Part shown: in pieces, positions 1 to 3,794 of the stretch | Layout of the letters: every line of letters starts with the position of its first letter | Numbering within the stretch: the first letter of the stretch is position 1 | Virus record (IMG/VR): IMGVR_UViG_3300036791_001904 | Location: 1-33,307 of that record | DNA length: 33,307 bases | Strand: one strand, 5' to 3' | Origin: a virus | Notes under the pieces: model-generated | Told to the model about the DNA's origin: nothing | Database searches by the model: none | The model's input: the letters and a program-made list of their open reading frames with translations, nothing else | Made by a program: the position numbers and the translations under genes

Positions 1-1194
1 ATGGAATTCCTCTACACCATCTTCACCGTATTTTTTAATCAGGTAATGACCAACGCGCCGTTGCTGCTGGGTATTGTGACCATGCTCGGTTACATCCTGC
101 TCAGGAAGAGCGCGACGGTGATCATCAAGGGCACCATCAAAACCATTATCGGCTTTATGTTGCTGCAGGCAGGGTCCGGCATTCTGACCGGCACTTTCAA
201 ACCCGTGGTAGCAAAACTTTCAGAAGTGTATGGCATTAACGGCGCAATATCAGACACCTATGCGTCGATGATGGCGACGGTTGAGCGCATGGGCGAGGCC
301 TACAGCTGGGTGGGTTACGCGGTGCTGATAGCACTGGCGCTGAATATACTGATGGTGGTTTTCCGCCGCATCACCGGCATTCGCACCATCATGCTCACCG
401 GCCACATCATGTTCCAGCAGGCGGGGCTGATTGCGGTGTTCTTCTTCATCATGGGCTACCCGATGTGGACGACCATCTGGTTGACGGCAATTCTGGTGTC
501 ACTGTACTGGGGCATTACCTCGAACATGATGTACAAACCGACCCAGGCCGTGACCGAAAACAGCGGCTTCTCGATTGGTCATCAGCAGCAGTTTGCCTCA
601 TGGATTGCCTATAAAATCGCGCCATACCTCGGCAAGAAAGAAGAGAGCGTGGAAGACCTGAAACTGCCAGGCTGGCTGAATATCTTCCATGACAATATCG
701 TCTCCACCGCCATCGTGATGACCGTGTTCTTCGGTATTATTCTGTGCTCCTTCGGCCTCGACACCCTGCAACAAATGGCCGGAAAAACCCACTGGACGAT
801 TTATATCCTGCAAACCGGTCTGATGTTTGCGGTGGCGATTTTCATCATTATTCAGGGCGTGCGTATGTTCGTCGCTGAACTGACTGAAGCCTTTAACGGT
901 ATCTCCCAGCGCCTGATCCCCGGAGCTGTTCTGGCGATCGACTGCGCGGCCATTTACAGCTTTGCGCCGAACGCCGTGGTCTGGGGCTTTATGTGGGGCA
1001 CCATCGGCCAGCTGATTGCCGTCGCCATTCTGTTTGGCATGGGCTCTTCCATCATGATCATCCCTGGTTTCATCCCGATGTTCTTTTCCAACGCCACTAT
1101 CGGTGTGTTTGCCAACCACTTCGGCGGCTGGCGCGCGGCACTGAAGATCTGTCTGGTGATGGGAATTGTAGCGCGGCGAACGATTTGGCACTAA
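1..1194 (+). pseudogene. ulaA: UlaA, ascorbate PTS permease EIIC, 3'-truncated by prophage insertion
   Basis: UlaA is the inner-membrane EIIC of the L-ascorbate phosphotransferase system: it imports ascorbate while UlaB and UlaC phosphorylate it. The ORF begins with ATG at base 1, and the protein is strongly hydrophobic with many membrane segments. Stretches I recognise as close to E. coli UlaA include [15 protein letters not shown] near the start, [14 protein letters not shown] at about 131-144 and [18 protein letters not shown] at about 320-337. Host reading frame holds through residue 388 (ICLVMG). The remaining residues IVARRTIWH and the stop at 1192 come from phage end DNA. Full-length UlaA is about 465 aa, so roughly the last 75 residues, including C-terminal membrane segments, are missing and should lie beyond the far prophage end. 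Ascorbate uptake by this copy is inferred to be lost. Confidence 0.93.
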
Positions 1195-1286
1195 ATCACG
1201 TCAGCTTTGGCACTCGCAAAGGCCGTTTAAAGCCTCGATTTGGCACTGTGCCAAATCATTCGCACCGTAAGAAATCTTGAGAACGG
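1167..1286. other. Prophage right end (attR) with transposase-binding-like repeats
   Basis: Host ulaA coding sense stops at 1166 and the next bases are TGTA, the usual terminal bases of Mu-family ends. Inside the end the core TTTGGCAC occurs at 1184-1191, 1206-1213 and 1239-1246, all in one orientation. The spacings are 22 bp and 33 bp, much like R1, R2 and R3 of the Mu right end. The third copy forms a perfect inverted repeat, GATTTGGCAC at 1237-1246 and its complement at 1248-1257 around a single T. No gene is seen here. A 5-bp target duplication would be GGAAT (1162-1166), but the other junction is outside the window. Confidence 0.8.
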
Positions 1287-2042
1287 TTAAAAATTCCTGA
1301 CAATTATTTCACCCGCCCTTTGTCCGTTATCCCCGACACTATAACGGGCCGTCACTGCCTTAATATTTTGGCCAGCGAATACCTTTCGCATATCAACATG
1401 ATCATTCACTGAGATGATGACTTTACCTGCTATCGAACCAGCGAATGCCGCCATAGCCTGATACTGTTCAAGCCCAAAAGGGACGCCATAGCCCACAGTT
1501 TCCCAGTACGGCGGATCAAGATAGAAAAGTGTCCCTTTGCGGTCGTAACGTTTAATAATCACTTGCCAGTCAAGATGTTCGATAACAACGCGATTAAGCC
1601 GCGCCCAGGCCGCTGAGAGCTTTTCCTCAATGCGCAACAGGTTGATGGTCGTGTTACGTGTAGCTGAGACACCAAAAGCTTGCCCCGTCGCTTTCGCACC
1701 GAAGGCTATGTGTTGAAGGTAGAAAAATCGGGCCGCGCGCTGTATGTCCGTCAGCCGTTCTGTATTCGTGTCTCTCTCCCATTCGAAAATCTGCCGGCTG
1801 GTTAACGCCCATTTAAACTGCCTAATTAATTCCTCAAGGTGATGCTGTACGACCCGATACAGGTTCACAATATCGCCATTGATGTCGTTCAACACTTCGA
1901 CTTTTGATGGTTCCTTCATAAAGAATAAAGCGGCACCGCCGCAGAATGGTTCAACGTAACAATCATGAGCCGGGAACAAGGGCAACAGGTGCTTCGCAAG
2001 CCTGCGTTTCCCTCCCATCCAGGGAATTATCGGCGCGTTCAA
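1287..2042 (-). CDS. D12-class N6-adenine DNA methyltransferase
   Basis: A Dam-like methyltransferase that transfers a methyl group from S-adenosylmethionine to adenine N6. From the proposed start, GGKR (about 10-13) and PFCGG (about 32-36) form the AdoMet-binding motif, and DPPY (about 176-179) is the catalytic motif. The final residues RNF precede TAA only about 120 bp from the prophage end, the place of com-mom in Mu. I chose the TTG at 2042 because AGGAGG lies five bases upstream and the resulting 251 aa suits the family. The frame stays open to an ATG at 2180 (297 aa), but those extra residues show no family motif. Target sequence cannot be read from the protein; GATC is possible. Likely role: modifying phage DNA against host restriction, or regulation. 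Confidence 0.88.
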   Translation of the reverse strand: MNAPIIPWMGGKRRLAKHLLPLFPAHDCYVEPFCGGAALFFMKEPSKVEVLNDINGDIVNLYRVVQHHLEELIRQFKWALTSRQIFEWERDTNTERLTDIQRAARFFYLQHIAFGAKATGQAFGVSATRNTTINLLRIEEKLSAAWARLNRVVIEHLDWQVIIKRYDRKGTLFYLDPPYWETVGYGVPFGLEQYQAMAAFAGSIAGKVIISVNDHVDMRKVFAGQNIKAVTARYSVGDNGQRAGEIIVRNF

Positions 2043-2075
2043 AATGACCTCCTGATTAGTTCGGGCAATCACATC

Positions 2076-2110
2076 GATCGGTTTCAACGATCGATAGCGG
2101 AATATCGATC
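2076..2110. promoter_or_regulatory. Cluster of three GATC sites upstream of the methyltransferase
   Basis: GATC occurs at 2076-2079, 2089-2092 and 2107-2110. The last two sites close a perfect inverted repeat with 8-bp arms (GATCGATA and TATCGATC) around a 6-bp centre. On the minus strand a TTGAAA, a 5/6 match to a -35 element, lies between the first two sites (2082-2087), but no good -10 follows at 16-18 bp. In Mu, three GATC sites upstream of mom make the gene subject to Dam methylation and OxyR. That this cluster acts similarly is inference. Confidence 0.5.
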
Positions 2111-2143
2111 TGCGATAACAATTGGAAATTAAAACCAAAATAG

Positions 2144-2159
2144 CCGCAAATACCTGCGG
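2144..2159. other. Small hairpin in the divergent intergenic region
   Basis: CCGCA (2144-2148) and TGCGG (2155-2159) can pair around a 6-base loop, followed on the plus strand by a T-rich stretch. It lies between the methyltransferase start and the divergent glycosyltransferase. It could be a weak terminator for plus-strand transcription or a regulatory hairpin. The stem is short, so the call is tentative. Confidence 0.3.
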
Positions 2160-2220
2160 TTTAATTTCGGTATGTAACAATCACAATTTCCCTTAAGTTC
2201 AAACAACGGATGTTAGTAAA

Positions 2221-2973
2221 ATGAAAGTCTTTATTATCAATCTAATACGCTCGGTAGCGCGTAGAAAAAGCATTGAAAATGAATGCATTAAATACAAACT
2301 TGACTATGAATTTATTGATGCTGTTGACGGGCGGCTATTAAACCCCTCGGAGATAAAACGACATACGCGTAAACTGAATTATGCCTGTAGACCCGGTGAA
2401 ATCGGTTGTGCACTAAGCCACATCAAGGCTTATCGCCTTATGCACGAACGAGGCATCAACACCGCGCTTATTCTGGAAGATGATGCAAAACTGACGCCTG
2501 AAATAGCGGATGTTTTAACCGAACTCGATAAAGCCGGGAACAGCAAAAAACCGACCATAACACTACTGACAAAAACGTTTCAATATCAGGATAAATGCCT
2601 ATCCCACATCGACAATAAGCACGGTGTTTACCCTGTAATTGAGGCGTGTATGTCGCATGGCTATGTTATTAATCGTCCTGCGGCAAAGAAGGCGCTGAAG
2701 GCGCTTTACCCCGTCTGGATGGTTGCAGACCGCTGGCACCTTTTTAATGAGTATTCTATCTGTGATATTACCGCAATCATTCCCCCCGTTATTGTGCATT
2801 CTGAACTGGCTTGTGCATCAACAATAAGCACTCACTCTGAACATGACTCACACATTCAGGCAAAGAAACAAATCTGGGATAAATTGCGAAAAAAACGACC
2901 TCTTTCTATCAAGATAAAAAGAATGTTATGGCTAATATGCAAAAGGAATTTCATTAAGATTGTTAAGTGCTGA
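2221..2973 (+). CDS. Glycosyltransferase family 25 (LPS-modifying type)
   Basis: A 250-aa GT25-family protein of the kind that adds a sugar to lipopolysaccharide at the inner face of the cytoplasmic membrane. Family marks are the N-terminal FIINLIRS, GEIGCALSH at about 59-67 and LILEDDA at about 83-89, whose acidic residues would bind the metal and nucleotide sugar. The C-terminus is basic and hydrophobic, consistent with membrane association. GGATG precedes the ATG by about nine bases. It is the only phage gene seen on the plus strand, is convergent with the tail operon and divergent from the methyltransferase, and looks AT-richer than the tail genes. These are marks of a cargo (moron) gene expressed from the prophage. 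Inferred role: altering the lysogen's surface and possibly blocking superinfection. Donor and acceptor sugars cannot be told. Confidence 0.85.
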   Translation: MKVFIINLIRSVARRKSIENECIKYKLDYEFIDAVDGRLLNPSEIKRHTRKLNYACRPGEIGCALSHIKAYRLMHERGINTALILEDDAKLTPEIADVLTELDKAGNSKKPTITLLTKTFQYQDKCLSHIDNKHGVYPVIEACMSHGYVINRPAAKKALKALYPVWMVADRWHLFNEYSICDITAIIPPVIVHSELACASTISTHSEHDSHIQAKKQIWDKLRKKRPLSIKIKRMLWLICKRNFIKIVKC

Positions 2974-2980
2974 TATCGAT

Positions 2981-3001
2981 GGCCCCAGCATCACTGGGGC
3001 C
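2981..3001. terminator. Hairpin between convergent genes, possible bidirectional terminator
   Basis: GGCCCCAG and CTGGGGCC form a perfect 8-bp GC-rich stem around a 5-base loop. It lies between the stop of the plus-strand glycosyltransferase (2973) and the stop of the minus-strand 76-aa gene (3031), as a bidirectional terminator would. There is no clear U-tract on either side, so strength is uncertain. Confidence 0.55.
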
Positions 3002-3030
3002 GATGTATCAATCAGATGTGACTACCGCTA

Positions 3031-3261
3031 TCAATTCGGGTCAGACTCTCCCAGAACGTCTGTCAGGCCAGCATCAACCGCTTCATCAATCTGCGCGTCC
3101 AGAGTGGCTTTAATCTGTGTTTTAACGGCTGAAGTCACAGCGTCAGAACGTAACGCAGTTTTTACCAGTTCGTCGGTTACGATATCTTTAATATCTGCCA
3201 TTTTTAAATCCTCGTTTGTTTTTGGAGTGAAAAAGGGTTTAGCCCATGAAAATATGCTCAT
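3031..3261 (-). CDS. Small protein downstream of the tail fibre chaperone, function unknown
   Basis: A 76-aa ORF with AAAGGA seven to eight bases before its ATG (3261). A second in-frame ATG at 3201 (MADIKDIVTDEL) has its own GAGGA at good spacing, so a 56-aa product is equally possible. The C-terminal part is acidic and predicted helical (KTQIKATLDAQIDEAVDAGL). I see no membrane segment and no family I recognise. It is the last gene of the tail operon, close behind the fibre chaperone gene, and is probably cotranscribed late. Confidence 0.6.
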   Translation of the reverse strand: MSIFSWAKPFFTPKTNEDLKMADIKDIVTDELVKTALRSDAVTSAVKTQIKATLDAQIDEAVDAGLTDVLGESDPN

Positions 3262-3272
3262 GGTTTTGTCCT

Positions 3273-3794
3273 TTATTTTGAATTAGGTGTTTCCGGCCAT
3301 TTAATATCAGGCGCTGTGTTTAAATCTAAACGATTCAACGCAACGCGATATGTCTTCCACTGTTTGAGCAATGCAGTCTCGTCTTCCGTTGCTGCTTCAA
3401 TGTCTATAGCGTCCTGAAGCGGTGCTATAGCTGCGTTCGCTGTGAACATTAATGAATCACGCGTAGATGTGGCCTGCGCGATATATTCATCACTTGTATA
3501 TACTCGCTGGATGATTTTCTTTCCGTCAAATACCCACCCGCCATTGATATCTACGTTTTTGGGAATTTCAGCAACTGGAATTTCAGCAACTGAATTACCA
3601 ACAGGCCACAACGCTGAGACGTCATTGCTCATTGAAACAATCACACCTGCGGAATCAAAGATGATTTTTAATGTATCATCTGCAAAATTCTTTTGAGATT
3701 CATACCAATCTGCTCCGGTTTCATCCGTTGCTACACCGATAATGATCCCATCGGTTTCAACATTTTTCACCGTGAAGTTTTTCATGATAATCAT
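3273..3794 (-). CDS. Tail fibre assembly chaperone (Mu gpU-like)
   Basis: A 173-aa protein of the caudoviral tail fibre assembly family, which helps fold and attach the fibre encoded just upstream. The family signature is the C-terminal block LLKQWKTYRVALNRLD followed by a WPETP-type end. The start at 3794 is chosen for AAGGAA about seven bases upstream; a second ATG lies at 3782. The frame stays open to 3842 inside the fibre gene, but that part looks like overlap. The VAEIP motif is repeated in tandem because of a 15-bp duplication at 3562-3591. Confidence 0.85.
   Translation of the reverse strand: MIIMKNFTVKNVETDGIIIGVATDETGADWYESQKNFADDTLKIIFDSAGVIVSMSNDVSALWPVGNSVAEIPVAEIPKNVDINGGWVFDGKKIIQRVYTSDEYIAQATSTRDSLMFTANAAIAPLQDAIDIEAATEDETALLKQWKTYRVALNRLDLNTAPDIKWPETPNSK
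3562..3591. repeat. 15-bp in-frame tandem duplication
   Basis: The 15-mer GGAATTTCAGCAACT occurs twice back to back (3562-3576 and 3577-3591) inside the fibre chaperone gene, and a few matching bases follow. It adds exactly five codons, giving VAEIPVAEIP, and keeps the frame. Confidence 0.95.

Follow-up and report, generated by a model that had tools for sequence, protein, structure and literature searches.

Joint control of a gene by OxyR and Dam methylation is described, in the literature that we searched, for mom of phage Mu, agn43, gtr and opvAB. Mu mom has hitherto been treated as a special case of methylation-sensed control; we find the same geometry before a methyltransferase that replaces Mom, and also ahead of many phage genes whose products remodel the host or protect it. 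That adenine methyltransferases can stand in for Mom in Mu-like prophages is already known, and Drozdz and colleagues reportedly found in 2012 that three adenine methyltransferases of Mu-like prophages are non-specific. No description of OxyR/Dam control of D12 methyltransferases in the mom position was found in our literature search, whose coverage was incomplete. A widened half-site spacing of reduced OxyR has been described for gtr (PMC2909390), and the working OxyR sites of opvAB, with their embedded GATCs, are 7-8/10 matches (PMC12902445).

The window, which is the whole stretch of DNA analyzed here (an IMG/VR virus record of 33,307 nucleotides), comprises most of a Mu-like prophage, with genes for a MuA-type transposase, a MuB-like ATPase, a Mor-type activator, a Mu portal, a gpT head protein, a tail sheath, a tail fibre and a fibre-assembly protein. 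The right prophage end is inserted in a ulaA-like gene that is 82% identical to E. coli ulaA, which points to an Enterobacteriaceae-like enteric host other than E. coli. The rightmost phage gene stands at the com-mom place of a Mu-like phage and encodes an adenine methyltransferase of the D12 class (PF02086, E 1e-25), in agreement with the first-pass annotation as to both position and product. Its likely start is a TTG codon at 2042, preceded by an AGGAGG Shine-Dalgarno sequence and conserved in the two nearest relatives, L002 and L003. The enzyme would have an anti-restriction role. The repeats just inside the right phage end are probable binding sites for the transposase. A predicted hairpin upstream of the operator would shield the methyltransferase gene from upstream transcription; the scan returned 4 terminator-like sites against 2.3 expected by chance. 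The divergent moron of the window, a GT25 glycosyltransferase gene, occupies the place that the invertible G segment and gin hold in Mu, and gin was not seen in the stretch from the tail genes to the methyltransferase gene of the window. The features of the locus are as follows.

Left of the repeats at 1181-1258: disrupted host gene (ulaA-like).
1181..1258, plus strand: CGATTTGGCACT repeats immediately within the apparent right phage end (two exact copies, two having 2 mismatches).
1287..2042, minus strand: D12-class N6-adenine DNA methyltransferase, 251 aa, rightmost phage gene, mom position.
2076..2079, minus strand: GATC3, 13 bp past GATC2, in OxyR half-site B (3' arm).
2077..2091, minus strand: predicted OxyR half-site B, ATCGTTGAAACCGAT, 8/10 consensus, register +19.
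2089..2092, minus strand: GATC2, 18 bp past GATC1, in OxyR half-site B (5' arm).
2089..2110: operator portion with GATC1 and GATC2, a perfect inverted repeat GATCGATA-N6-TATCGATC.
2107..2110, minus strand: GATC1, the first towards the methyltransferase, in OxyR half-site A (3' arm).
2108..2122, minus strand: predicted OxyR half-site A, ATTGTTATCGCAGAT, 6/10 consensus, register -12 from GATC1.
2144..2159, minus strand: predicted terminator-like hairpin, CCGCAGGTATTTGCGG then CTATTTTGGT, separating the operator from the DNA upstream.
2221..2973, plus strand: divergent LPS glycosyltransferase, GT25 (PF01755; PHROG moron glucosyltransferase).

The three GATCs lie at 2076, 2089 and 2107, as previously annotated, and are spaced 18 and then 13 bp apart when read towards the methyltransferase gene. 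GATC1 and GATC2 form the ends of the perfect inverted repeat that had been noticed, with 8-bp arms (GATCGATA at 2089-2096 and TATCGATC at 2103-2110) and a 6-bp loop; the family form of this repeat is GATCRAT-N8-ATYGATC. The window is poor in GATC (69 copies against 108 +/- 10 in shuffles), and the trio is the sole GATC triplet within 60 bp anywhere in it. That three GATCs fall in 35 bp at some point of the window is only mildly unusual (P ~0.11). A trio spaced 18/13 has P ~0.0005 anywhere in the window and did not arise in the intergenic region in any of 200,000 trials, and the exact-spacing pattern, found once in the window, is found in none of 100 shuffles. The trio with its 18/13 spacing is real and not due to chance. 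The position of GATC1 matches in three relatives (L002-L004), in Mu mom and in agn43.

The likeness to Mu mom that the first-pass annotation had proposed extends to the exact geometry and orientation of the trio, to which two OxyR half-sites are added. Half-site B starts 31 bp after half-site A, which is the spacing of reduced OxyR, and the earlier reservation that the half-site spacing fits imperfectly disappears once this spacing is applied. The conventional 37-bp consensus of oxidised OxyR fits more poorly than two half-sites 31 bp apart. We aligned 166 non-redundant instances of the operator and scored them against the OxyR dimer half-site ATAGnTnnnAnCTAT, which revealed two peaks of similarity at -12 and +19 from GATC1. 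These two registers score best in the family, with 6.8/10 and 7.5/10, and the bases left unconstrained by the pattern match at 68% (-12) and 83% (+19) against a background of 29 +/- 7%. The half-site score of the trio, 14/20 (6+8), is the maximum across the whole window (P 3e-5), with 14 (7+7) for Mu and 16 (8+8) for agn43. With 6/10, half-site A is a weak match in the window, which counts against reading the trio as an operator.

A DNA-level search of named phages and E. coli genomes with the upstream region returned the coding region only, or nothing, and relatives were therefore sought by protein and by pattern. The exact spacing is kept in L002 and L003, whose methyltransferases are 88% and 87% identical, and in L004, with an approximately 70% identical methyltransferase and unrelated flanking DNA. 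In a maximum-likelihood tree of 98 methyltransferases, the trio is restricted to one well-supported clade (99/86) of 17 rows, and the outgroup methyltransferases are without it. It is intact in 15 of these rows, while the other two keep GATC1 and GATC2 and have GATC3 turned into GATA by one substitution; L271, which is not in the tree, has GGTC. Thus, in the related prophages to which the earlier annotation had pointed for comparison, the trio is conserved. Pairwise identity among 18 clade members is 97% for the GATC bases, 65% for the other OxyR consensus bases, 51% for the other positions of the element and 35-38% outside or upstream. The distance from the end of the trio to the methyltransferase start codon is about 14-33 bp in clade members.

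The geometry is also rigid in bacterial genomes, which we searched with a gap-tolerant motif (GATCRAT-N3..13-ATYGATCG-N3..13-GATC) that allows 121 gap pairs. Among 111 matches in 295 Enterobacteriaceae-family genomes, 92 have gaps of 8/8, equivalent to the 18/13 spacing, and the next class, 9/8, which is the spacing of agn43, accounts for 5; the backward control of the motif gave no matches. Enrichment was judged by this histogram of genome gap lengths and not by raw counts of the loose pattern in viral contigs, since some of the loose-pattern viral matches are chance. The host genome of one clade member (G057) has a Dam above the family cut-off. Pseudomonadaceae are mostly without Dam, and the geometry is nearly absent from them, with 8 motif matches in 198 genomes and a single one in the exact geometry (G317:C1:440138-440172). 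That genome has no Dam match over the family cut-off, and this occurrence counts against the operator reading. Operator copies that overlap in tandem or as mirror images, with several GATC trios in 70 bp, were seen at G203:C1:715947-716016 and, in similar form, at two more places, on three contigs of G203 in all.

The trio is thus quite probably an OxyR/Dam epigenetic operator for the adenine methyltransferase of the phage. Reduced OxyR would bind the half-sites at 2108-2122 and 2077-2091. Because the three GATCs sit in the half-site arms, Dam methylation of the trio would exclude OxyR, and bound OxyR would keep Dam away. With OxyR bound to the unmethylated trio, the methyltransferase gene, 34 bp on, would be closed to transcription (OFF); with the trio methylated by Dam, the promoter would be free (ON). 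Bound OxyR is likely to occlude the promoter and start region directly, similar to agn43 and with the ON/OFF logic of Mu mom, given that the operator is placed 18-33 bp ahead of the start and, in most relatives, behind a -10-like box. Since this TATnAT-like box stands before GATC1 in most clade members and the trio is near the start, OxyR bound there would cover the transcription start. The box is poor in the window, where a sigma-70 promoter scan of the locus gave no credible promoter for the methyltransferase; both points count against the operator reading. Control of this kind would be bistable, with switching between the two methylation states, and by analogy with agn43 and gtr the expression of the methyltransferase may be phase-variable.

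Instead of, or besides, the methyltransferase, the operator could control the divergent GT25 gene. This gene, which the first-pass annotation had overlooked, is a possible second target, and we would entertain tentatively that phase-variable lysogenic conversion by GT25 is the main purpose of the operator, which the methyltransferase merely adjoins unless both are co-switched. GT25 starts 111 bp beyond GATC1, the operator elsewhere precedes morons on that side (Cor at ~70 bp, O-acetyltransferase), and L176 has the operator and GT25 without the methyltransferase. OxyR/Dam control of phage O-antigen genes is moreover established for P22 gtr (PMC2909390). Within the clade, however, the operator is fixed 18-33 bp from the methyltransferase, whereas the divergent partner and its distance vary or vanish: the partner is GT25 in the window, L002, L003 and L269, an O-acetyltransferase in L229 and L261-L263, an unrelated protein in L004, L273 and L264, and elsewhere none was recognised. 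Since the partner varies while the operator stays, the operator tracks the methyltransferase. The asymmetric 18/13 order likewise points at the methyltransferase, as it points at com-mom in Mu.

We are somewhat more doubtful of a self-reinforcing loop, in which the methyltransferase would methylate the GATCs of its own operator, exclude OxyR and lock itself ON, so that a brief escape from OxyR would commit the cell or the replicating phage to full methylation. The chemistry of the product agrees with that of the operator, as OxyR is kept from gtr when the GATCs there are N6-adenine methylated (PMC2909390). If the enzyme methylates GATC, its own expression may well be favoured. The mom-position enzymes of other Mu-like prophages, reportedly non-specific adenine methyltransferases, also speak for the loop. 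Against it, the score of the methyltransferase, 114.2 bits, is slightly under the NCBIfam dam cut-off of 114.85 bits, and the protein is devoid of the GATC-recognition stretch NGLxRxN...NVPxGRY of EcoDam and DpnII. In addition, host Dam already methylates GATC, and the extra effect of the loop may therefore be small.

It is very unlikely that the trio is a SeqA- or replication-related GATC cluster, or the operator of a regulator other than OxyR. SeqA does bind hemimethylated GATCs that are close together, and the 31 bp from GATC1 to GATC3 make about three helical turns, but OxyR-specific bases outside the GATCs (T24, A28, C30, G-9, T-7) are conserved although SeqA would not need them, and the rigid 18/13 spacing is that of proven OxyR/Dam sites. 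That a chance cluster or an RNA hairpin (a terminator, or one that occludes the RBS) was mistaken for an operator is hardly credible: the clustering of three GATCs is only mildly unusual in itself and the inverted repeat can fold as RNA, but the exact spacing is conserved over diverged relatives and genomes, and the leader RNA folds no better than shuffles (z -0.6), an ordinary fold that disfavours an RNA explanation.

With regard to the origin of the putative methyltransferase operator, the first-pass annotation suggested that the phage may have kept the control site of mom while swapping Mom itself. Several observations run against this view. No com ORF is present at the window locus, where GATC3 and the methyltransferase start are only 34 bp apart, and the C-activator site TTAT-N6-ATAA, which was sought just downstream of the trio, is absent at this locus. 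The outgroup methyltransferases have no trio, the trio is placed 18-33 bp from the start codon and not upstream of a C-activated promoter, and the same operator is found ahead of many unrelated genes. The gain of a portable operator is thus as likely as its inheritance from mom.

Approximately 29 non-redundant operator sites lie ~70 bp upstream of genes for Cor superinfection-exclusion lipoproteins (phrog_1119), for example at L182:3205-3477, in L142 and L135 and in Enterobacter phage LAU1 (L359:188-530), and OxyR/Dam phase variation of superinfection exclusion is predicted from these sequences. In P2-like phages, the operator separates the tail sheath gene FI from the gene for tail-fibre assembly, at 35 non-redundant sites; phase variation has no obvious sense before tail sheath genes of the P2 type, which counts against the operator reading. 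The P2-like sites (L177, L209, L154, L158 and others) are often without a moron, and in L152 the slot holds an acyltransferase. The operator also occurs near O-acetyltransferase, GT25, mom, flagellin and heptosyltransferase genes. The sites upstream of flagellin, L315 and three further ones in Enterobacteriaceae-family genomes, make OxyR/Dam phase-variable flagellin possible.

Because it also precedes genes for Cor, O-acetyltransferases and LPS glycosyltransferases, the operator looks like a general phage module. As a broader and speculative proposal, temperate phages of Dam-positive enteric bacteria may share a portable OxyR/Dam operator that phase-varies morons (methyltransferase, Cor, O-antigen acetyl- and glycosyltransferases), with the methyltransferase rewriting the marks of its own switch in a self-reinforcing manner. 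A general distribution of the operator in phages, or OxyR/Dam control of Cor or of the methyltransferase, is undescribed in the literature searched; as its coverage is incomplete, the novelty of the wider pattern is provisional. If OxyR/Dam control holds, a population of lysogens would be split into cells that are ON and cells that are OFF for anti-restriction methylation and superinfection exclusion, with the redox regulator OxyR and host methylation setting the state. The sequence rule GATCRAT-N8-ATYGATCG-N8-GATC would then predict new phase-variable phage genes.

Among described systems, the FluMu Hin1523, Hia5 and Pnme Nma1821 enzymes are likened to the present one by description and not by sequence: an adenine methyltransferase replaces Mom in the same way. 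Pseudomonas phage B3 has a 61.5% identical methyltransferase homologue, also in place of Mom, but B3 and several homologues differ from the window in that com-like ORFs are present and the GATC trio is absent. In Pseudomonas phages such as B3 (H71), a Com gene is annotated over the methyltransferase-homologue match, and in L010 and L070 a Com-like zinc-finger ORF stands before the methyltransferase, a com-methyltransferase arrangement instead of com-mom. P22 gtr and Salmonella opvAB resemble the window in their 13-bp GATC pairs inside one OxyR half-site, in the half-site spacing of reduced OxyR and in the control of a horizontally acquired or phage gene (PMC2909390, PMC12902445). They differ by four GATCs, three or four OxyR half-sites and alternative sites that activate and repress, whereas a fourth GATC is absent from the window locus, with only three GATCs in 1518-3743. 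The agn43 (flu) operator likewise has three GATCs with OxyR half-sites in the same register, and lies over the transcription start region, where the annotated isrC transcript begins at GATC1. Its spacing is 19/13, the first gap being 1 bp longer, and it controls an autotransporter; no promoter was identified by the scan in the window. Mu mom differs in that its operator lies upstream of a C-activated promoter, with a C site, TTATGCCCCAATAA, at L096 697-710 that lacks a counterpart in the window, while the operator described here is 34 bp from a start codon; the product here is a MethyltransfD12 protein (PF02086) and not the Mom (acetamidoadenine) enzyme. The two loci nevertheless share three GATCs with the 18/13 spacing (L096 660, 678 and 691) in the same orientation to the gene, their place in the phage genome, an OxyR half-site score of 14/20 and a DNA-modification gene downstream.
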